DNA of 64,000 bases from IMG/VR virus record IMGVR_UViG_3300028400_000004, positions 1 to 64,000 of that record. One strand, written 5' to 3'. Both the position numbers and the translations under genes were made by a program. The stretch is from a virus. The notes under the pieces were generated by a model. The model had not been told where the DNA came from. It saw only the letters and a list, made by a program, of their open reading frames with translations, and ran no database searches. Within the stretch, counting starts at the first letter, position 1. Each line of letters begins with the position of its first letter. This document shows positions 2,585 through 50,794 of the stretch, piece by piece.

Positions 2585-2971
2585 TTAGATAGAAATATCC
2601 CCATGGAAAAATTCGTTTTCCTGAAGATTTTTCAAAAAAGCATACAGGTGTTTCCGCGCAGTTTTTGCAGTTTTGTATGCTTGGTCGGAATCAGGGCGAT
2701 AAATAGTCCGGCCTTCCTTATCAAATACAACGCCCCGATAAATCCGTTCACCTTCCCAAGCGAACGGCAGGGATTCGACGATATAGAAAAAATCGCCGTA
2801 ATGTTCTGATTTTTGGTCGGCAGGAAAGATTCCTGCCTCAAGGATACGCGCATTAAAGAATTTTAGCGTATCGTCATCGACGTAATGGGTTCGGCCATTA
2901 AGCTGATCCTGCGCATAATCGACAGGACGGGAAAAATATTTTTCTTGATACTTTGTTCCTTTTCTAGCCAT
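2585..2971 (-). CDS. Hypothetical protein, 128 aa
   Basis: This soluble protein begins MARKGTKYQEKYFSRPVDYA and includes RTHYVDDDTLKFFNARI, GDFFYIVESL and RIYRGVVFDKEGRTIYRP. The Y-x-DDDT-x-x-FF-x-x-RI pattern resembles small uncharacterised phage and plasmid proteins, and I cannot name a function. It lacks membrane segments and Cys motifs. The gene is flanked by a hairpin on its 3' side, suggesting an independently tuned cistron. Confidence 0.6.
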   Translation of the reverse strand: MARKGTKYQEKYFSRPVDYAQDQLNGRTHYVDDDTLKFFNARILEAGIFPADQKSEHYGDFFYIVESLPFAWEGERIYRGVVFDKEGRTIYRPDSDQAYKTAKTARKHLYAFLKNLQENEFFHGDISI

Positions 2972-5352: not shown

Positions 5353-5368
5353 TGGCATGCTTGTTGCA
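5353..5368 (+). promoter_or_regulatory. TTGGCATG-N4-TTGCA promoter element, cassette 1
   Basis: TGGCATG-CTTG-TTGCA has the GG/GC spacing of a sigma54 -24/-12 promoter. The same bases can be read as a sigma70 promoter, TTGGCA then 17 bases then TACATA. Sequence alone does not decide. Downstream AATTCATTACATATAAGG is shared with 6059 and nearly with 7031. Confidence 0.5.
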
Positions 5369-5472
5369 ATTCATTACATATAAGGAGAAACCGGCTTTGG
5401 GCTTATTTGGTATGCTTTTTGTAAGCAAACTATTCAATAATTTTGTTTATACCCTTATAAAAAATTTTAGCA

Positions 5473-5500
5473 TTTACAAAGACCATGTTTGTGATATTCT
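5473..5500 (+). promoter_or_regulatory. Cassette 1 second promoter
   Basis: TTTACA, 16 bases, TATTCT with an extended -10 TGA. The block GTGATATTCTA followed by CTTGCCA is shared with cassette 2. The leader contains a TTGCCA-AACG-TGGCAA hairpin. Confidence 0.5.
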
Positions 5501-5544
5501 AGGCTTGCCAAACGTGGCAATAACCAGAACCAGGAGACAATATC

Positions 5545-5916
5545 ATGGAAAATTTAATTTTTTATAAGATTGACCAAATTCCTGAGGTTTTCGCCCCCGA
5601 AGCGGCTTATCTTGATGCCTCGGGATATGCCTTCGTCGGGGTCCTGAAGGGCTCTGATGGCATCATCAAGGCGGCAATATGGTTAGGCCGCCCGCCTACG
5701 CAATCAACCCACATCTTAACTGGCCCCGAGCCGGTTCGGTTCCCTACACGAGAGGGTGTACTTATCCCCATCTCGACGGGGGATACCGGCTGGAATCAAA
5801 TTCCCGCCTTAGTACTACCTGCCCGGTACGGGGCGACTATCGCCCCAGAATATAAGGTAGCCGCTCCGTATCAGGCTGCGCTCATCGAGGCATTTGAGCT
5901 TGGGGAGTTAGCTTAG
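5545..5916 (+). CDS. Cassette 1 GC-rich accessory protein, 123 aa
   Basis: The start is fixed by CAGGAGA 8 to 14 bases upstream of the ATG. The protein begins MENLIFYKIDQIPEVFAPEA and looks like a small beta-rich domain (YAFVGVLKGSDGIIKAAIWL; EGVLIPISTGDTGW). No family is recognised. It is clearly more GC-rich than its surroundings. Its mRNA includes perfect 7-bp stem-loops at 5763-5785 and 5830-5846, a mild form of the pattern in cassettes 3 and 4. It has its own promoters and terminator, so it behaves as an independent accessory cassette. Confidence 0.6.
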   Translation: MENLIFYKIDQIPEVFAPEAAYLDASGYAFVGVLKGSDGIIKAAIWLGRPPTQSTHILTGPEPVRFPTREGVLIPISTGDTGWNQIPALVLPARYGATIAPEYKVAAPYQAALIEAFELGELA

Positions 5917-5922
5917 TGCAGT

Positions 5923-5960
5923 AAACAACCCCTCGACGCTATTTTGTCGAGGGGTTGTTT
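5923..5960 (+). terminator. Cassette 1 terminator
   Basis: A 15-bp stem with core ACAACCCCTCGAC / GTCGAGGGGTTGT starts 7 bases after the stop codon and ends in TTTT. Confidence 0.85.
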
Positions 5961-6058
5961 TATGTCAGTATATTAGAGTTTAATAATATAATGTTAGTCT
6001 GATTTGCCTGATTGTTATATAATAATTTTATTATATAATAATTTTATTAATTACTAAT

Positions 6059-6074
6059 TGGCATGTTTGTTGCA
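6059..6074 (+). promoter_or_regulatory. TTGGCATG-N4-TTGCA promoter element, cassette 2
   Basis: TGGCATG-TTTG-TTGCA, or TTGGCA plus 17 bases plus TATATA if read as sigma70. It is nearly identical to the element at 5353. Confidence 0.5.
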
Positions 6075-6112
6075 ATTCATTATATATAAGGCTGATTGTC
6101 TTTAACATTAAT

Positions 6113-6128
6113 TGGCATAATTATTGCA
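6113..6128 (+). promoter_or_regulatory. Second -24/-12-like element, cassette 2
   Basis: TGGCATA-ATTA-TTGCA. This copy has no good -10 hexamer at 17 bases, so it favours the -24/-12 reading if it is functional. Confidence 0.4.
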
Positions 6129-6170
6129 TTATAAATTAGTCTTATTTATGGCATTATAAAAAATTTAATG

Positions 6171-6198
6171 TTTGTGTTGGTGGATTTTGTGATATTCT
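6171..6198 (+). promoter_or_regulatory. Cassette 2 second promoter
   Basis: TTTGTG, 16 bases, TATTCT. The GTTGGTGG spacer is shared with cassettes 3 and 4, and the -10 region with cassette 1. Confidence 0.5.
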
Positions 6199-6241
6199 AC
6201 ACTTGCCAATTCTGGAAATAGATAATTTGGGGGATAAGACA

Positions 6242-6460
6242 ATGGAAAATTCGCAAGTTAATGCTGCTATTCTTTCTGCGGAAGAAGCGGGGCGCGCCGT
6301 TGTTCGCTTCGGCGCCAATTTCTCGACAATCAAAGAAATATCCGAGTATTTCTACCATGAACTTGCTTATGGATATTGGGATGACATTATCCCAACAATA
6401 TCCGTAGAGCAAGCGCGTGATGCCTTTATCCAAGGCGTGATCGCCGAACAAAACAAATAA
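6242..6460 (+). CDS. Cassette 2 accessory protein, 72 aa
   Basis: The protein begins MENSQVNAAILSAEEAGRAV and is helical and acidic (IKEISEYFYHELAYGYWDD). No family is recognised. Start 6242 is preferred because GGGGGA lies upstream and MEN matches the cassette 1 start; an in-frame codon at 6203 lies in the leader. The mRNA holds an imperfect stem around GGATATTGGGAT and ATCCCAACAATATCC. It has its own promoters and terminator. Confidence 0.55.
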   Translation: MENSQVNAAILSAEEAGRAVVRFGANFSTIKEISEYFYHELAYGYWDDIIPTISVEQARDAFIQGVIAEQNK

Positions 6461-6465
6461 CATAC

Positions 6466-6492
6466 ATTCCCCCACAGATTTTGTGGGGGAAT
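6466..6492 (+). terminator. Cassette 2 terminator
   Basis: An 11-bp perfect stem ATTCCCCCACA / TGTGGGGGAAT with a 5-base loop, followed by TTTT. Confidence 0.85.
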
Positions 6493-7030
6493 TTTAATGC
6501 ATTATATATTAGAATTTAATAATATAATATTAATCTGATTCGCTTGATTACATGCTATGTCATACATGGCATGATTAATGCATGATACATTGATTTAATT
6601 AAATAATTATATAAGTATATTTTTATTTAATCATGGTCTGATTTATGCCTGATTGTTATATAGTTATATAGTAATATAATGCTGATCTGATTCATCTGAT
6701 TGAATATAATTATTTTATTATACGTTGATTAGCTAATACGCCTGATTAAATATTAGAATATAATAATGTAATTGATTCCTGATTCGCCTGATTGGCTATT
6801 AGCATTTAATTATATACTGATTAACTGATTAACTAACACGCCTGATTGGCTATTAGCGTTTTATTATATTTTAATAAAATAATATTATTAAATAATTATA
6901 TTAGAATATAAGAATAAACTTAAGTAACAATATTAGAATATAAAAGAATTTAGGCTCGAGTACATTCTAAAATAAGAATATGATAAAATTCTAATATAGT
7001 TTATTAATTAAATAGGCCAATTTTAGAGTT

Positions 7031-7046
7031 TGGCATGGGTTTTGCA
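7031..7046 (+). promoter_or_regulatory. TTGGCATG-N4-TTGCA promoter element, cassette 3
   Basis: TGGCATG-GGTT-TTGCA, or TTGGCA plus 17 bases plus TATATA. The following AATTCTTTATATAAGG matches the downstream block at 5353 and 6059. Confidence 0.5.
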
Positions 7047-7107
7047 ATTCTTTATATAAGGGATTGCATAAGGATAAGATTAAGTTATGTGGCTATAGAA
7101 TTTTTTA

Positions 7108-7173
7108 GTGTTGCGTTGGTGGGCGAGTATGTTATCCTAGACTGGCCAATGTAGGATCACACTAAGAGGAGGA
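7108..7173 (+). repeat. 66-bp promoter/leader repeat, copy 1
   Basis: Bases 7108-7173 are identical to 8068-8133. The block carries TTGCGT (7111-7116), 16 bases, TATCCT (7133-7138), then a leader ending in AAGAGGAGGA, a strong Shine-Dalgarno. The identity stops exactly before the differing start-codon contexts, so it works as a portable expression leader. Confidence 0.9.
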
Positions 7174-7177
7174 GGTC

Positions 7178-7675
7178 ATGATCTATCCCGCTACTGATCG
7201 TCACTTTGTGATCTTCGGCGGGTACTCGCCCGCCGTCATCTACGTCACCCCCGCGTGGGGTGACGACCTGGACCGCTTTTTTGCGCTCCAGTTCATCCCC
7301 GCTTGGGCGGTCCCCGCCCAGGTGGACCGCTACGGGAAGGTCCAGGCGGCCTTCCCTGACCCGGAGGGCCTACGACTGGCCTTCCGGTCGGCCCCTTACG
7401 GCCGGGGGCCGGAACGGGTCTCGGTCTTTTCGCCAGAGGGGGATCATCCCCTCTGGCGGGTTTTCGAATTGGACGGGGTCAATCCCCGTCCAATTCGCCA
7501 ATGGGTGGTCCGGGGACCCCGGACCACCCCCATGGCCCACCCCGAACCTCAGTCGGGGTGGGTCCCACCCACCGAATGGGGGCGCTCGACCCCCTATTGG
7601 GTCAGCCCGTCAGGGCTGACTTTCCCCCAAGACGTGCCCGACCACCGGCGGCCACATTGGTGGCCGCCGGTTTGA
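7178..7675 (+). CDS. Cassette 3 open frame, 165 aa, or structured RNA
   Basis: An ATG follows AGGAGGAGG, so translation is well supported. The first part, MIYPATDRHFVIFGGYSPAV, looks protein-like. The rest is Pro/Trp/Arg-rich (PHWWPPV at the end) and no family is recognised. The region is very GC-rich, and other frames on the same strand are also open, so frame length alone is weak evidence. Nearly the whole message folds into successive perfect stem-loops (see 7216-7711). It may encode a protein whose mRNA is structured, or act as RNA with incidental coding. Confidence 0.45.
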   Translation: MIYPATDRHFVIFGGYSPAVIYVTPAWGDDLDRFFALQFIPAWAVPAQVDRYGKVQAAFPDPEGLRLAFRSAPYGRGPERVSVFSPEGDHPLWRVFELDGVNPRPIRQWVVRGPRTTPMAHPEPQSGWVPPTEWGRSTPYWVSPSGLTFPQDVPDHRRPHWWPPV

Positions 7676-7711
7676 CCCGCACCCCGCCCCACCAGATTGG
7701 TGGGGCTGGGT
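7216..7711 (+). other. Array of about 15 consecutive stem-loops in cassette 3
   Basis: Inverted repeats in order: 7216-7235 (7 bp), 7243-7265 (9), 7302-7322 (9, one GU), 7323-7344 (6), 7348-7370 (8, one GU), 7374-7389 (6), 7389-7411 (7), 7431-7458 (11), 7465-7497 (14, perfect), 7503-7529 (12), 7536-7562 (10), 7575-7598 (8, one bulge), 7601-7620 (8), 7644-7671 (12), 7681-7711 (terminator). Stems differ in sequence and loops are 3 to 10 bases. Confidence 0.85.
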
Positions 7712-7714
7712 TTT
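7681..7714 (+). terminator. Cassette 3 terminator
   Basis: GCCCCACC / GGTGGGGC with loop AGATT, extended by CCC/GGG past one mismatch and followed by TTTT. Confidence 0.8.
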
Positions 7715-7947
7715 CTATTGGCCAGAATATTAGAATATGATAATATAATTGCAAATTTATGTATATTTTTAATTATATTATTATATTCTGATTAGTGCCT
7801 GATTGGCATGACTGATGCATAACATGCCTGATTGGCCTGATTGCGAAGCAACATGGCCATGATTGGCCTATATCTTGCATGGCCTGCTGGCTAGAATGGG
7901 TCTTAGAATCAGTCTAATAATCATTACTGCTATGCAGTAATGTTAAC

Positions 7948-7969
7948 AATAATCATTATCATTATCATT
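7948..7969. promoter_or_regulatory. Fur-box-like hexamer array
   Basis: The minus strand reads as three consecutive GATAAT-like hexamers (GATAATGATAATGATTATT), the classical Fur recognition pattern. It lies upstream of cassette 4, directly before a TGGCACG-CATT-GTGCA element (7969-7984) and after a 9-bp hairpin (7922-7942). Short AT-rich matches can arise by chance. Confidence 0.3.
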
Positions 7970-8067
7970 GGCACGCATTGTGCATACATGCACGAATTGT
8001 GCCATGCTGAGGATGGCATGGTGTTTGCTAAAAATAATATGAGTTTATGGCAGGATAAGAAATTTAT

Positions 8068-8133
8068 GTGTTGCGTTGGTGGGCGAGTATGTTATCCTAG
8101 ACTGGCCAATGTAGGATCACACTAAGAGGAGGA
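8068..8133 (+). repeat. 66-bp promoter/leader repeat, copy 2
   Basis: Identical to 7108-7173, at an offset of 960 bases. TTGCGT at 8071-8076, TATCCT at 8093-8098 and the Shine-Dalgarno at the end drive cassette 4. Confidence 0.9.
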
Positions 8134-8139
8134 TTCGTT

Positions 8140-8532
8140 ATGACCCGCCCCACTACCAAAATTCGTACCACCACCATCTCCACCAAGCTTGTCGTGCAGG
8201 AAATATTCCTGCACGACACAGGGGAGCGTCACGTCAAGGGCCGTTGGGCCCAGGTCGGCACATGGAAGTGCCGGCATATCTACGTCCGCCACGACGTGTG
8301 GCGGACCCTCCAAGGCCGCCCAAACCCCCCAACCCTCGTCCTTGAGGTCTTGGACCTCAGGGACGAAATCCTCAGGGCGTCCCTCTCAGGGGACGTGGGC
8401 CCCCTGACAGTCACCCGCAGGTCCGAGCGACGGCACATCGGTGGGCCGTCCTCCATGGCCACCGCCCAGGTCCAATGGTGGGACCTGGGCGGGGTCGTCG
8501 GGATCGGAGGGATACCGCCGTCCGATCCCTAA
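8140..8532 (+). CDS. Cassette 4 open frame, 130 aa, or structured RNA
   Basis: The ATG lies 8 bases after AGAGGAGGA of the repeated leader. The product starts MTRPTTKIRTTTISTKLVVQ and is basic and Arg-rich, with no family recognised and no similarity to the cassette 3 product. It is very GC-rich and several frames are open. As in cassette 3, the message is a chain of perfect inverted repeats, so RNA function or protein plus RNA structure both remain possible. Confidence 0.45.
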   Translation: MTRPTTKIRTTTISTKLVVQEIFLHDTGERHVKGRWAQVGTWKCRHIYVRHDVWRTLQGRPNPPTLVLEVLDLRDEILRASLSGDVGPLTVTRRSERRHIGGPSSMATAQVQWWDLGGVVGIGGIPPSDP

Positions 8533-8567
8533 CCAGCACCCCACCATGCCGAGCAGGCATGGTGGGG
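8190..8567 (+). other. Array of about 10 consecutive stem-loops in cassette 4
   Basis: Inverted repeats: 8190-8218 (13 bp, perfect), 8238-8251 (5), 8254-8275 (8, one GU), 8284-8306 (9, perfect), 8341-8361 (9, one GU), 8378-8395 (7, one GU), 8429-8450 (6), 8462-8492 (12, perfect), 8500-8529 (9, perfect), 8539-8567 (12, terminator). Arms are unrelated in sequence to those of cassette 3. Confidence 0.85.
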
Positions 8568-8570
8568 TTT
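8539..8570 (+). terminator. Cassette 4 terminator
   Basis: CCCCACCATGCC / GGCATGGTGGGG with loop GAGCA, then TTTCTTATT. Confidence 0.85.
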
Positions 8571-9156
8571 CTTATTGCCCACACTATCACCATATCCTTA
8601 TATTATTATATACTAATACCTAACCAATTCTTAGACTCATTCTAATTCTCACCTAAAATTCCCCCATATTTTACCCTATTTTTGTATTTTATAACTCCAT
8701 AAAATCCAGTAATAATGCGGCTTCCAGCATTATTATTTGCTTATTTTTTAATATTTTTCTATATACGCGCTTAACGCGCAATAATAATAAATCACCAAAA
8801 ACCCAACTTTCCTATATACGAAAAAACTCGGCTGTTGGATTTTTAACTTATCTTTTTGGATGGCCAAGAATCGCATAAAAATGCGCCTTTCAGCGCGCAT
8901 AACTTTCCATTTTTGCGCTTTATTGCGCATCAATGCGCGTATGCACTAAAAACACAAAAAAGCATAATGGCACAGAACGTGCAATATGCATGAATCGTAC
9001 CAGCATAATATGCCGATATGCTAATATAGCGCCTCAGATAACGCCTGAGCGCCAAAGGCGCGCAACATGGCATACCCTATGCATACATGCATGAAATGCG
9101 CCAGAATCGCACCACAGGCGCGTGTAGGACCATATAATAATATAATGGTATGCTAA

Positions 9157-9194: not shown

Positions 9195-9228
9195 CTAGTG
9201 TGGCCAGGTGGCTAGTGTGGCCAGGTGG
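9195..9228. repeat. 17-bp tandem repeat, two copies
   Basis: CTAGTGTGGCCAGGTGG is present twice head to tail without mismatch, 23 bases downstream of the parS-like site. Confidence 0.85.
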
Positions 9229-9314
9229 CGAGCGCCTACACGTCCCAGGGGGGGGGGCAATCGGCGCGTGTGGGGTGGCGCGGAAATTGCAATATAAGGA
9301 CAAATATTCTGGCC

Positions 9315-10084: not shown

Positions 10085-10567
10085 TTAGCTGATTAATGGC
10101 TTTCCATACATTATAGTGTGTAGGGTGTTTATTTTTTGTTTGAAGGATTCAGCCGCAAATATATAATAAGATGAGGTCGGAGGCATTTTGGTTAAATAGA
10201 TATATAATAGTAATGAAGATAATGGATAATAACGAAAAGTCTTATCTTGTTTAAGATTAAGCAATGATATGCTTATTATATAAAGAAATGCAAATCTGTT
10301 TGGTTTTGTAAATATCTCAAATGTATCTATAGAATAATTATATAATTCTGTGTATATAAAACACAAAGAAGGCACTATATGTAATCTGCCGTCACTTACA
10401 TAATAAGAAATGTTTTTATCATAAGATAGTGTCCTCAATTTTTTGATGAATAATGTGGTTAAGGGCCTTGGAAAATTGTCTGTTAATTCTTGGTAGTTAT
10501 TTATGTCATTATATAATTCGTATAACTCATGTAGTTCTGATTTGGTAGGTGTATAGTCAATAAACAT
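10085..10567 (-). CDS. Paralogous family member 2, 160 aa
   Basis: Members share an N-terminal segment of the type ELYxLYNDIxNYxxL, a middle strand region (here RLHIVPSLCFIY), a hydrophobic helix followed by LLxLK/D (ISISLLNLKQDK), and a C-terminal K-x-KI-x-x-L-x-xI-x-Y motif (ESFKQKINTLHTIMYG). No known family is recognised. It overlaps the start region of member 3 by 11 bases, so the genes are translationally linked. Confidence 0.65.
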   Translation of the reverse strand: MFIDYTPTKSELHELYELYNDINNYQELTDNFPRPLTTLFIKKLRTLSYDKNISYYVSDGRLHIVPSLCFIYTELYNYSIDTFEIFTKPNRFAFLYIISISLLNLKQDKTFRYYPLSSLLLYIYLTKMPPTSSYYIFAAESFKQKINTLHTIMYGKPLIS

Positions 10568-11075
10568 TTAATGTCTCATTAAATAATAAATTTAGCTGAC
10601 GGATTTTGTTTTTAAATGCATTAAATATTATACTAGTACAAGTAGATTGCCTTATACTATAATTTATGTTGTTTGCTTTATATGTTCTTTCTAATAAAGC
10701 GTACTCATTAAATATGATAACATCGTTTGCTATTTTACTTTGGGTATGGGTATATTCAAACAAACAAGTTGTAAGCATGTATAAAAATTGGAATTTTAAA
10801 TCTTTTTCATGTGAAAGCCTTTCCCAATTTATAATTGTATAAGCATTTAATTCTTTTATGTATATAAAATTTCTATGATAAAGATTGAAAACTATAATGT
10901 CATCCCTTAAATATAAAGGATCGCCATGCATTGTAGTATTTAATTGTTTTAGCTTGTTTGATAGAATTTTGATGAGTTTTTCATTATAAGTGTCCATAAG
11001 ATAATAGTATTTAAATATATCATTATAAATACTATAAATTTTAGGTATGTCGTCCTTATTGAAATCCACGAACAT
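10557..11075 (-). CDS. Paralogous family member 3, 172 aa
   Basis: It begins MFVDFNKDDIPKIYSIYNDI, close to the openings of members 2 and 5, and keeps the NTTMHGDPLYLRDD mid-segment and a C-terminal KNKIRQLNLLFNE. It is more diverged in the central hydrophobic helix (LYMLTTCLFEYTH). The function is unknown, and it is AT-rich like the rest of the operon. Confidence 0.65.
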   Translation of the reverse strand: MFVDFNKDDIPKIYSIYNDIFKYYYLMDTYNEKLIKILSNKLKQLNTTMHGDPLYLRDDIIVFNLYHRNFIYIKELNAYTIINWERLSHEKDLKFQFLYMLTTCLFEYTHTQSKIANDVIIFNEYALLERTYKANNINYSIRQSTCTSIIFNAFKNKIRQLNLLFNETLNVY

Positions 11076-11076
11076 T

Positions 11077-11307
11077 TTATTTGTTGAACGACAATGTAAC
11101 GCAAATTACACCACAATTTGTGGCAACCGTATGAATCCTAGAGACGCCGAATACGACGAAATCTCGTTTTTCCCTAGAATTTTCAGTGCAATAACAACTA
11201 TTTACCATGTCATAATAAAAAAGTTTGTTGCCGTAACCAACAAAATCACAAAAAGGATCGCGATCATTACAGGCAAATTCTGTATAAATCTGTAATGGAA
11301 ATAACAT
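11077..11307 (-). CDS. Cys-rich hypothetical protein, 76 aa
   Basis: The minus-strand frame has AAGGAAG just before the ATG and lies in the operon direction, ending one base before the member 3 start. The sequence contains scattered Cys (EFACNDRDPFCDF, SCYCTENSRE, NCGVICV) and no CxxC pair. A plus-strand frame across the same bases (11047-11295) lacks context and is rejected. No family is recognised. Confidence 0.45.
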   Translation of the reverse strand: MLFPLQIYTEFACNDRDPFCDFVGYGNKLFYYDMVNSCYCTENSREKRDFVVFGVSRIHTVATNCGVICVTLSFNK

Positions 11308-11325
11308 AACTTCCTTTTTGAAACC

Positions 11326-11559
11326 TTAAATTCCTATAAACCACGCATCATCATGAGCACCTATCCCGAATAGAAACTTATGTATTATAACTTCCTTTAC
11401 GTTAAATTGTTTGTTCAATTCTAAAAGAAAAGTATCAGAAAAATCTAAAACACTGATGGCAGGATTATCTTGAAATGGCTTTTTGTGTGTCCGTAATTGT
11501 ATTTCTGTGTCTGACAAGTAATCAACTAGGGCTTGGTAAATATCTTTATAGTTTTCCAT
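11326..11559 (-). CDS. Hypothetical protein, 77 aa
   Basis: The gene starts behind AGGAGCC and begins MENYKDIYQALVDYLSDTEI. It ends in FGIGAHDDAWFIGI, a short Gly/Trp-rich tail. It is soluble and acidic with no motif assigned, and sits between two paralogue-family genes. Confidence 0.5.
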   Translation of the reverse strand: MENYKDIYQALVDYLSDTEIQLRTHKKPFQDNPAISVLDFSDTFLLELNKQFNVKEVIIHKFLFGIGAHDDAWFIGI

Positions 11560-11588
11560 ATATTGGCTCCTAAAGAAGTAATAAGAAA

Positions 11589-12131
11589 TTATTTACTGTA
11601 CATGATTGATTTTAATTCGGTTATTTTTCTTTTTATATTTTTATACATGAAATCGTAATAAACATCAGCCGGCATAGTTAAATAATGATCAAAAACAATT
11701 TTATATAACCTATAAGAATCTACTGGATAAAATTCTTTTTTTGGATACTCTGAATCTTTTTTTATATCAAGTAAGCACATTGATAATATAAAGAAGAAAT
11801 AATTATCAAGTTCACTTTTATTTATACTTGTAAATAAATAATGGCCATCTATTCTTATACCAGTATCGTAGTATTCTACATGTTTTGAAAGGAAAGTTGG
11901 CGCAAAATAGACACTATCATTCGATATTATTAGTATATCACGATGCAAATTTGCATTTAATGTGGTAATATCTGTTAATAGTGTATCCACCAACACTCTA
12001 TTTTGTCCGTTAAGTAGGGTTTGGTAATTATATAAATCTATAAATTTGTTATATAACTCAATAATTTGTTTTTTCGTCGGTAATGTGTCTATAAAAATGT
12101 CTTTAGGGGTCATTGGTTTAATCCTAAACAA
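11589..12131 (-). CDS. Paralogous family member 4, 180 aa
   Basis: The clearest representative of the family: IIELYNKFIDLYNYQTLLNG, LLTDITTLNANLHRDILII, SVYFAPTF, FFFILSMCLLDIKKD, then KNIKRKITELKSIMY. Its N-terminus (MFRIKPMTPKDIFIDTLPTK) is slightly longer than in the others, and the ATG at 12113 is a possible alternative start. It directly abuts the methyltransferase gene. Likely helical; function unknown. Confidence 0.65.
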   Translation of the reverse strand: MFRIKPMTPKDIFIDTLPTKKQIIELYNKFIDLYNYQTLLNGQNRVLVDTLLTDITTLNANLHRDILIISNDSVYFAPTFLSKHVEYYDTGIRIDGHYLFTSINKSELDNYFFFILSMCLLDIKKDSEYPKKEFYPVDSYRLYKIVFDHYLTMPADVYYDFMYKNIKRKITELKSIMYSK

Positions 12132-12812
12132 TCAATCACTGAACGCAAGTGTGATAAGTGCCGTTGCCGCCACAATTGGAACTTGTCCGTTTCCAATGCA
12201 GCGAAATCTATCCATCCTATGGGCCATCCCATTAACCATTCTTCCGTTTCTGGGATTCTCCGCCCAAACACTTTGGTATGATTTTTGCAACTTTTCCATT
12301 TCTGCATAGATGGTGCATTGTAATTTGCTTTTGTCGTCGGCGTATGCAAGTAACCAATATCTTCTCCGAACGTGGTCACTACCCAAGTCTTTCGCGGAAA
12401 GGGAAATACCTTGGACTTTGTAACCCAGCCCAGCCAAATCCCTTCCTGCATGTTCAATCGCGTTCTTGCTGACATTTTCAGCAAAGACATACCATGGGGC
12501 GACTTCTCGTACGATTCGGAGCATTTCTGGCCACAAGTCTTCTGCAACTTTTCTGCCTCTACTTGCACTAGAAAATGCCTGGCACGGATAACCGCCCGAA
12601 ATGATATCCACAAGTCCTTCCCAACGTCTTCCATCAAATTCTTTGACATTTTCAAAGATTGGGAAAGGTGGCAAATGGCCTTCGTTTTGCCGCATAAGCA
12701 CAATGTTCCTGGCGTATTCGTTGATTTCAACACCGCATACTGGATGGATACCGACCAATGTGGAGGCCAAAATGCCTCCACCGCAGCCTGTGAAAAGTGA
12801 TAGTTCATTCAT
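12132..12812 (-). CDS. DNA (cytosine-5-)methyltransferase
   Basis: This 226-residue protein has the C5-methyltransferase motifs in order: SLFTGCGGG (motif I, AdoMet loop), GGYPCQAFS (motif IV with the catalytic Cys), FAENV (motif VI), VRRRYWLLA (motif VIII) and IGNGQVP (motif X). It is short for the class, with a compact target-recognition region, so specificity cannot be read. AAAGGAG precedes the ATG. No cognate restriction enzyme is seen. It probably protects phage DNA or alters host methylation. It is more GC-rich than its neighbours, suggesting separate acquisition. Confidence 0.9.
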   Translation of the reverse strand: MNELSLFTGCGGGILASTLVGIHPVCGVEINEYARNIVLMRQNEGHLPPFPIFENVKEFDGRRWEGLVDIISGGYPCQAFSSASRGRKVAEDLWPEMLRIVREVAPWYVFAENVSKNAIEHAGRDLAGLGYKVQGISLSAKDLGSDHVRRRYWLLAYADDKSKLQCTIYAEMEKLQKSYQSVWAENPRNGRMVNGMAHRMDRFRCIGNGQVPIVAATALITLAFSD

Positions 12813-12827
12813 TTGCTCTCCTTTATC

Positions 12828-13616
12828 TTATATAAATAATTTTTTCATCGCAGCTTGTTGCTGTCTTTTAGTCAAATCATCGATAGAGACTAAGCTTGAA
12901 CCATTATTATATAGAATATAACGCAAGGAAGGTTTTACATACTTTATATCATATTCCCCATATAAAAACTTACAATTATCAACTACATAATGGTCTAGGT
13001 TTACTTTAGATTTTTTTATTAAAGTATTTAATTGCCTTTTGTAAAAATCATTAAAAAATGAGGGGCTATAATGCGAAGATAATAATTCTTCATTATCCAA
13101 AATACTTAAATAATAAGTACTAGTATAAACCTTTCTATATATATTTTTATCAGCCAAACTTAAGAATAAAAATGTATATAAGTCATATTTATTTATTTTA
13201 TTATCAAAAAACGAATAAGAAAAAGCTGTTGTATTTACCAGACAAACAAAAAATGCTTTTCTCATTTTTTGCTTTTTTAACAAGTCTTTATATCTATTTT
13301 TATTATAAAACAGTGCATACAAAAGTAATATATACTTATTATACTCAGAATACATTTTAACTTTATTAGAAATTATAAGCCTCAAATACATCTCCAAATC
13401 AAAAGTATTCAAAAATTCAACAAATATTTCATAATATTCTTGTTTATTGTATCCATCCCTGTATAAAATGCAAAAAGGCTCATTTTTAATTGTTTTTTTA
13501 AACTCAAAAATGTCTAGTTTGTTCGTATTTAAACAAAAATGCATCTTCGCGATTTCTTTACGAACGTTTCTATCATTCACACAAAATAAAAAATTTGATA
13601 GTCTGAAAGTACACAT
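12828..13616 (-). CDS. Hypothetical protein, 262 aa
   Basis: A Lys/Tyr/Phe-rich AT-biased protein starting MCTFRLSNFLFCVNDRNVRK behind AAGGAGC. It is helical, with no transmembrane or catalytic motif recognised. It ends LTKRQQQAAMKKLFI. It sits in the paralogue-family operon but does not show the family signature by eye. It could be a longer relative or an independent gene. Confidence 0.55.
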   Translation of the reverse strand: MCTFRLSNFLFCVNDRNVRKEIAKMHFCLNTNKLDIFEFKKTIKNEPFCILYRDGYNKQEYYEIFVEFLNTFDLEMYLRLIISNKVKMYSEYNKYILLLYALFYNKNRYKDLLKKQKMRKAFFVCLVNTTAFSYSFFDNKINKYDLYTFLFLSLADKNIYRKVYTSTYYLSILDNEELLSSHYSPSFFNDFYKRQLNTLIKKSKVNLDHYVVDNCKFLYGEYDIKYVKPSLRYILYNNGSSLVSIDDLTKRQQQAAMKKLFI

Positions 13617-13641
13617 AAAAGCTCCTTAAAATATTGTCACA

Positions 13642-14139
13642 TCAACTAACAACAATCGAATGTAATTGCTCTATTTTATATTTTATCAACTCAGCAAACC
13701 CCGTATAGTAACTGTTTTTATCATTCATAAATATAATTAGATAAATAAGATTAAAAGAAGTGGGGCGGGCAACTTGAACACCTTTCTCTGATTTTATATC
13801 CAATAAACAAATGGAAGTCAATAGAAGAAAAGTGTTGATATAAGGCTGGCTAAAACGTTCATTATAATAATATAAATTTGTATAAAGTATGCTTGAATAC
13901 TTATTACCATTATATACAATAAGATTAAGCCCAATGGTAGGGCTAAAATATAATATGTTGTTCTGGATTATTAAAACGTTTTTTGGTAATTTATTATTTA
14001 TGCTTCTTAAAGAAGCAATTAAATCATCTACTAAGCCTTTGTTATACACCCCTACAAGTAAATAATATTCATAAATATTAACAAATAGCTGGTATGCAAA
14101 GTCTAAGTGTTCTTTGTCTGGCAACTTATCCATAAACAT
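13642..14139 (-). CDS. Paralogous family member 5, 165 aa
   Basis: It carries all family landmarks: FAYQLFVNIYEYYLLVGVYN, SINNKLPKNVLIIQNNILYF, SPTIGLN, LLLTSICLLDIKSE and LIKYKIEQLHSIV. It begins MFMDKLPDKEHL, parallel to members 2 and 3. It overlaps member 6 by one base. Function unknown. Confidence 0.65.
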   Translation of the reverse strand: MFMDKLPDKEHLDFAYQLFVNIYEYYLLVGVYNKGLVDDLIASLRSINNKLPKNVLIIQNNILYFSPTIGLNLIVYNGNKYSSILYTNLYYYNERFSQPYINTFLLLTSICLLDIKSEKGVQVARPTSFNLIYLIIFMNDKNSYYTGFAELIKYKIEQLHSIVVS

Positions 14140-50074: not shown

Positions 50075-50794
50075 ATGAAAAAGGACTTTTACAAAAAATA
50101 TTTTGGATTTATAAATTCAATAATAGAAAAGACGGTTTGTGATCCTTATAATCCAGAACGTAGAGATGATTATCTACAGGAATGTTATTTGGCATTGCTT
50201 GAGGCTAAAGAGAAGTATGATGACAAAAAATCGTCATTCTCTAATTATGCCTACATCGTTGTTAGAGGACGATTGCTTGACTACATAAGAAAGCAAACTT
50301 CTTTATCTAGAGAAGATTACAAGATAGTAAATACGATTCAAAATTTGATTAGTGAGAAAGGTATAGTACGCTATGAGGATATAAGTAAGAATTTTAACGT
50401 AAGTAAAGAAAGGTTTTATAGATTGTTGTCTTTAAGTAAAAATAGTAATTACAAAGATTTATTATATTTTAATTATGATTATTATAGTAATGATGATTTT
50501 GAAGTGGTTGTAGAAGATAAGAAAGAATTAAAAATGCAGTTATATATAAAACCGACACAAGTACATAGGATTGATAATAATAAATTTAGAAAAAAATTAG
50601 ATATTTATTTAGATAGGTTGACTGCTAAGGAGCGTACAGTTATAAAACTGAAATATTATCACGATAAAAGTATTAGTGAGATAGCTTCAATATTTAATGT
50701 TTCGGTAGCTGCGGTTAGTCATATGCATAAAAAGGCAATTAAAAAATTAAAGTCATATATTGGTGATAACGTAAATGAATACCTACATGATTAA
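50075..50794 (+). CDS. Phage-encoded RNA polymerase sigma factor
   Basis: 239 aa with sigma70-family regions: region 2 (DDYLQECYLALLEAKEKYDD, then FSNYAYIVVRGRLLDYIRKQ), a region 3-like segment (VRYEDISKNFNVSKERFYRL) and region 4 with HTH (LTAKERTVIKLKYYHDKSIS; IASIFNVSVAAVSHMHKKAI). Length and layout fit FliA/WhiG-like group 3 factors. It probably redirects host polymerase to phage promoters. It heads the plus-strand replication operon and is preceded only by a weak AGGT ribosome site. Confidence 0.85.
   Translation: MKKDFYKKYFGFINSIIEKTVCDPYNPERRDDYLQECYLALLEAKEKYDDKKSSFSNYAYIVVRGRLLDYIRKQTSLSREDYKIVNTIQNLISEKGIVRYEDISKNFNVSKERFYRLLSLSKNSNYKDLLYFNYDYYSNDDFEVVVEDKKELKMQLYIKPTQVHRIDNNKFRKKLDIYLDRLTAKERTVIKLKYYHDKSISEIASIFNVSVAAVSHMHKKAIKKLKSYIGDNVNEYLHD

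Follow-up and report, generated by a model that had tools for sequence, protein, structure and literature searches.

The closest described systems to the locus treated here are of several kinds. In morons of tailed phages a small gene is equipped with a promoter and a terminator of its own and differs in composition from its neighbours, integron gene cassettes are unrelated short genes in a row with a hairpin after each of them, and sigma-54 (RpoN) promoters follow the -24/-12 consensus TGGCACG-N4-TTGCW, whose GG and GC doublets lie 10 nucleotides (nt) apart. Palindromes within reading frames are known from the Rickettsia palindromic elements, which are copies of repeat families. Reading frames made of chains of perfect palindromes are rare, and the best described case found is that of the mitochondria of hairworms (Nematomorpha), in whose conserved respiratory genes perfect inverted repeats, mutually unrelated and with arms of up to 142 base pairs (bp), lie inside the frames, the long repeats avoiding phase 3 (PMC6649704, PMC10380579). 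This report is centred on a row of four short genes in the IMG/VR virus record IMGVR_UViG_3300028400_000004, of 83,753 bases (83.7 kb), whose first 64,000 nt are referred to as the window.

The locus is read here as an accessory-gene array of four cassettes, each complete in itself, in which a dual-promoter leader has been duplicated, the payload has been exchanged at the start codon and two of the payloads are highly structured mRNAs; taken as a whole, this reading is given an even chance. Four open reading frames (ORFs) stand in a row on the plus strand, each behind a purine-rich ribosome site (Shine-Dalgarno, SD): the coding sequences (CDS) CDS1 (5545-5916, 123 amino acids), CDS2 (6242-6460, 72 amino acids), CDS3 (7178-7675, 165 amino acids) and CDS4 (8140-8532, 130 amino acids), all of them orphans. 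Each is followed, 5-10 nt past the stop codon, by a G+C-rich terminator hairpin with a T-rich tail on the same strand (5923-5960, with a 15-bp stem, 6466-6492, 7686-7706 and 8538-8568), so that at all four a single small gene has its own predicted promoter and its own predicted terminator, as in a moron. The deviating composition of morons is also found, the GC content of the four genes being 0.54, 0.45, 0.67 and 0.65, respectively, against 0.33 for the window. A previous sequence-only reading of this DNA, in which four short unlike genes shared one plan with a purine-rich ribosome site and a strong hairpin terminator for each gene, is borne out on these points. Its statement that every gene is clearly GC-richer than the spacers applies to CDS1, CDS3 and CDS4, but cassette 2 is just moderately GC-rich.

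The leaders, taken as the 300 nt upstream of each ATG, are copies of one another. In a stretch of 276 nt, 72% of the positions match between those of cassettes 1 and 2 (E 1e-40); for cassettes 3 and 4 the figures are 77 nt and 96% (E 6e-32), and for cassettes 2 and 4 they are 70 nt and 77% (E 5e-8). The matches between cassettes 1 and 3 and between 2 and 3 are shorter, significant too, and in part simple AT-rich sequence. A core of 66 nt on the plus strand, containing the second promoter and the SD site, is 100% the same in cassette 3 (7108-7173) and cassette 4 (8068-8133). On the other hand, when CDS1-4 were compared as DNA and as protein no significant similarity was found. The identity between cassettes 3 and 4 stops 4-6 nt upstream of the ATG, and the homology between cassettes 1 and 2 runs into the CDS, whose first ten bases (ATGGAAAATT) are common to both. 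Since the leaders are copies and the genes are not, the simplest explanation is that the leader was duplicated and the payload, that is gene plus terminator, was exchanged at the start codon. Terminators 1, 2 and 3 are each followed by the AT-rich motif ATATTAGAATTTAATAATATAAT or a variant of it, which is also located upstream of cassette 1.

Homology that ends around the start codon, together with unrelated CDSs, upholds the earlier claim of a copied regulatory frame with unlike payloads. The accompanying claim, that the genes were imported, finds some support for CDS3 and CDS4, where 58-78% of the third codon positions outside stems are G or C, against 18-53% in nearly all other phage genes sampled; the exception is a GC-rich stretch of 700 nt in a gene of 2,283 amino acids (69%). 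Since third positions are GC-rich outside the stems as well, import from a GC-rich source fits, rather than GC gained via stems alone, and import of these two payloads is considered plausible.

Each leader carries a TGGCATG-N4-TTGC(A/T) element of the exact sigma-54 -24/-12 form, of which TTGGCATG is the first half. These elements are located on the plus strand at 5353-5368 (TGGCATGCTTGTTGCA), 6059-6074 (with a second, weaker box at 6113-6128), 7031-7046 and 8014-8029 (TGGCATGGTGTTTGCT), 126-192 nt upstream of each ATG, and the GG/GC spacing of TGGCACG-N4-TTGCW is present at the four sites if Y is allowed at the C of CAC. A search of both strands of the 83.7 kb finds the strict form TGGCAYGN4TTGCW only at 5353, 6059, 7031 and 8014, one per cassette, whereas 0.014 would be expected from base composition, the copies not being independent because the leaders are duplicates. 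The looser box TGGCAYN5TTGCA, with one mismatch allowed, has 20 occurrences in the window where 2.3 would be expected, and 15 of the 20 lie at 5.1-9.3 kb. In cassette 4 the -24/-12 positions are retained though the surrounding sequence has diverged from cassette 3. Related boxes also occur in the spacers, where three 36-bp dyads (7969-8004, 8968-9003 and 9068-9103), each formed by an inverted pair of TGGCAY-N6-TGCA-like boxes that flank a short centre, are candidate operators; the one at 7969-8004, upstream of cassette 4, is made of two inverted TGGCAC-N6-TGCA boxes.

The second promoter, 79-142 nt downstream of the sigma-54-type element, is predicted to be of the extended -10 sigma-70 type (TGN-TATYCT). 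In cassette 1 (5473-5500, plus strand) it reads TTTACA-N16-TATTCT with TGA before the -10, in cassette 2 (6171-6198, plus strand) TTTGTG-N16-TATTCT, and in cassettes 3 and 4 TTGCGT-N16-TATCCT (7111-7138 in cassette 3); thus the upstream hexamer varies, the 16-nt spacer to TATTCT or TATCCT is constant, and TGN precedes the -10 hexamer. Several other leaders of the phage have the usual TTGACA-type -35 in place of the cassette type. With regard to the sequence-only reading, the -10 regions GTGATATTCTA and GTTATCCTAG that it described are present as TGA-TATTCT and TGT-TATCCT, and the TTGGCATG element that it placed in every cassette is real in cassettes 1-3, while the box of cassette 4 reads ATGGCATG.

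The most unusual feature of the locus, missing from that reading, is the presence of palindrome arrays in CDS3 and CDS4. With stems counted when perfect, non-overlapping and 7 bp or longer, CDS3 has 11 (the longest of 14 bp) and CDS4 has 6 (the longest of 13 bp), whereas shuffles of synonymous codons give 1.35 and 0.62, respectively; as in the coding palindromes of Nematomorpha, perfect inverted repeats are thus above the level of codon shuffling in both genes. The loops are short (3-12 nt), and no hairpin is a copy of another. The stretch at 5.9-8.6 kb holds 14 of the 29 GC-rich hairpins with a stem of at least 8 bp that the whole record contains. An assembly fold-back artefact was rejected in view of the number, small size and diversity of the hairpins, their loops of 3-12 nt and the intact frames around them.

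Folding energies (spans of up to 50 nt) were compared with those of synonymous, protein-preserving shuffles. They fall below the shuffles by 3.8 standard deviations (s.d.) in CDS1, 3.1 in CDS2, 10.7 in CDS3 and 6.0 in CDS4, whereas the z scores of 90 other ORFs have a mean of -0.91 (s.d. 1.27) and a minimum of -4.8; a whole-gene folding run on 22 stretches agrees (CDS3 -11.2, CDS4 -7.0). The mRNAs of CDS3 and CDS4 are therefore predicted to fold into chains of stable local hairpins. Folding of these two genes is far stronger than in shuffles on either strand, which palindromes make unavoidable, and in all four cassettes it is stronger on the sense than on the antisense strand (difference z -3.4, -3.1, -1.7 and -1.5; other ORFs, mean -0.32, s.d. 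1.14). Next to the perfect stems, G-T mispairs occur five times and A-C mispairs not at all, which is what a sense RNA would lead one to expect; this test was picked post hoc, with small numbers and without correction for local base composition. Sense-strand bias and G-T mispairs weakly favour selection on the sense RNA. The sense mRNA of a neighbouring gene in the left arm (2585-2971, minus strand) is also unusually structured (z -4.8, sense-antisense difference -3.5), without palindrome arrays. No Rfam family matched in the window at the gathering score, and the scattered sub-threshold matches seen at a relaxed threshold, such as HepC_CRE, were rejected as chance matches to hairpins.

In the proposed mechanism, the leader would have been duplicated and gene plus terminator swapped at the start codon. 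Expression would have two inputs, a basal one from sigma-70 and an extra one when the RpoN of the host and an enhancer-binding protein are active, and the hairpins would be kept at the RNA level, giving compact, RNase-resistant and slowly translated messages for small host-directed proteins. If the sigma-54-type elements are true, accessory expression in the phage would be tied to a stress or nutrient regulator of the host, a link for which a limited literature search showed no precedent. A bolder form, in which the duplicated sigma-54 plus sigma-70 leader is a swap-in platform and the payload messages, both coding and selected hairpin arrays, work during infection as an RNA device, be it a decoy, a shield or a timer, is unlikely.

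Several observations weigh against the proposed explanation. Concerning the promoters, they suit another one, without any part for sigma-54: a phage regulator would have its operators in the TGGCATG-N4-TTGC boxes, or the boxes would supply the -35 region of sigma-70 promoters of the form TTGGCA-N17-TAYATA. We regard this explanation as a real possibility, though less likely than not. Cassettes 1-3 fit TTGGCA-N17-TAYATA as well (TACATA or TATATA 17 nt after TTGGCA), the dyads formed by inverted pairs of some spacer boxes suit an operator, and the phage itself encodes a sigma-70-family factor with regions 2 and 4 (50075-50794 of the window, plus strand), which might read some phage promoters. 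The use of sigma-54, deduced from motifs, would require a host with RpoN, and the phage proteins scanned include no clear sigma-54 activator, the best PF00158 score, below the cut-off, being that of a MoxR-like AAA protein. However, the strict TTGC form is confined to the four cassette leaders, the dyad-forming spacer boxes carrying ATGC or GTGC instead, and cassette 4 keeps the -24/-12 positions without a good -35/-10 at the TTGGCA-N17 spacing.

As for the palindromes, they could have arisen by repeat conversion at the DNA level, through template switching between the arms of quasi-palindromes, in weakly constrained genes and without function, the cassettes being otherwise ordinary morons; this is doubtful, yet it deserves to be weighed. 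Imperfections in the stems are few (4 G-U pairs and 1 mismatch in about 158 stem positions), which suits conversion equally, and near-perfect arms were read as a sign of repeat conversion in the hairworm study, whose authors explain their mitochondrial case in this way (PMC6649704). Six of the 17 stems are in phase 3, the most amino-acid-constraining one, as if the peptide hardly mattered; the avoidance of this phase seen in hairworms is thus absent, with stems much shorter than the hairworm repeats, and at some points palindrome formation seems to have prevailed over the peptide sequence. Moreover, the sense-strand bias is modest for CDS3 and CDS4 and was tested post hoc, and no homologues were found in which covariation could be sought. 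Against conversion, just two genes of the phage are affected, their frames are intact with a coding-like GC pattern, the sense strand is favoured in all four cassettes, and G-T but no A-C mispairs stand beside the stems. The third explanation, that cassettes 3 and 4 are non-coding structured RNAs with incidental ORFs, is very unlikely. It would agree with the extreme structure, with amino-acid choice overridden by palindromes and with proteins without relatives, but the CDSs look real because of the good SD sites, the stop just ahead of the terminator in the four cassettes, the GC content by codon position (0.69/0.55/0.77 in CDS3 and 0.63/0.51/0.80 in CDS4) and the GC-rich third positions outside the stems, and a match in Rfam at the gathering score is missing. 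Two palindrome genes beside two ordinary-looking neighbours under the same leader make up a small, tractable system for comparing RNA selection with template switching.

None of the four cassette proteins matched Pfam, NCBIfam or PADLOC (which covers defence, not counter-defence, proteins), and tblastn of CDS1, CDS3 and CDS4 against INPHARED gave none either. Two weak matches were set aside: CDS4 with phrog_36329 (E 0.019), a family of unassigned function and the sole PHROG match for the cassettes, and CDS1 with BamC in PDB (E 0.49). Single-sequence AlphaFold models were poor and not usable (pLDDT 43 for CDS1 and 52 for CDS4), which counts against the proposed explanation, and a Foldseek search of the CDS4 model against viral models gave nothing below E 0.04. 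A host-directed accessory role would be the default for the products of such genes, and anti-defence action, which the sequence-only reading raised beside a moron role, would be one option.

The phage that carries the locus is a novel siphovirus. The genes for portal, prohead protease and HK97-type capsid protein follow the locus at 17-21 kb, and the prohead protease is less than 60% identical to anything in INPHARED. With CDS3, CDS4, CDS1+2, capsid, DNA polymerase and two leader motifs as queries, IMG/VR gave nothing closer than distant capsid relatives on short contigs that do not extend to the cassette site, their capsids being 27-64% alike in the part that matched. When GTDB genomes were scanned with the capsid alignment and CDS4, distant capsid relatives at most were obtained, with the cassette locus not covered, and blastn of the locus against phages and plasmids gave no useful match; the combination of copied leaders and hairpin-packed genes was not found in any other searchable record. 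A replication origin at the locus was discarded, as the cumulative GC skew has no clear turn there. Beyond cassette 4, the intergenic region 9195-9260 contains GTGTGGCCAGGTGGC repeated in tandem and, after it, about ten consecutive G, and at 10085-14139 (minus strand) a run of short AT-rich ORFs, paralogue-like by eye (10085, 10557, 11589 and 13642), is interrupted by a GC-richer C5-cytosine methylase gene (12132-12812). In the rest of the record, the gene for the MoxR-like AAA ATPase adjoins that of a DUF2201/vWA protein (record 74364-76585, minus strand; L009:10364-12585), a pair unexpected in a siphovirus. A Group I intron (Rfam RF00028, 108 bits; record 77843-78089, minus strand; L009:13843-14089) lies within a tRNA region with tRNA-Thr, Arg, Lys and Leu, and may split a further candidate tRNA, the antisense frame LPGLEPGT being typical of a tRNA T-arm.

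Compared with the systems mentioned at the beginning, the sigma-54-type elements share the form TGGCAYG-N4-TTGCW and the GG-N10-GC spacing with RpoN promoters, but they stand in a phage, on accessory cassettes, with no clear activator found among the scanned proteins. The resemblance to integron gene cassettes is limited to the row of unrelated short genes with a hairpin after each, since promoters precede each individual gene of the present row, and the hairpins, which are terminators, differ in sequence and form no attC-like family. The cassettes are moron-like in gene size, own signals and composition; unlike known morons, they form a tandem row of four whose leaders, with a sigma-54-type element, are all copies of a single dual-promoter one, and their payload would have been exchanged at the start codon. 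The hairpins lie within reading frames like the Rickettsia palindromic elements, but they are all different. Finally, CDS3 and CDS4 resemble the hairworm mitochondrial genes in their mutually unrelated perfect inverted repeats, and differ from them in that the phage arms are of 7-14 bp and at high density, the genes are orphans, phase 3 is not avoided and the sense strand is favoured.

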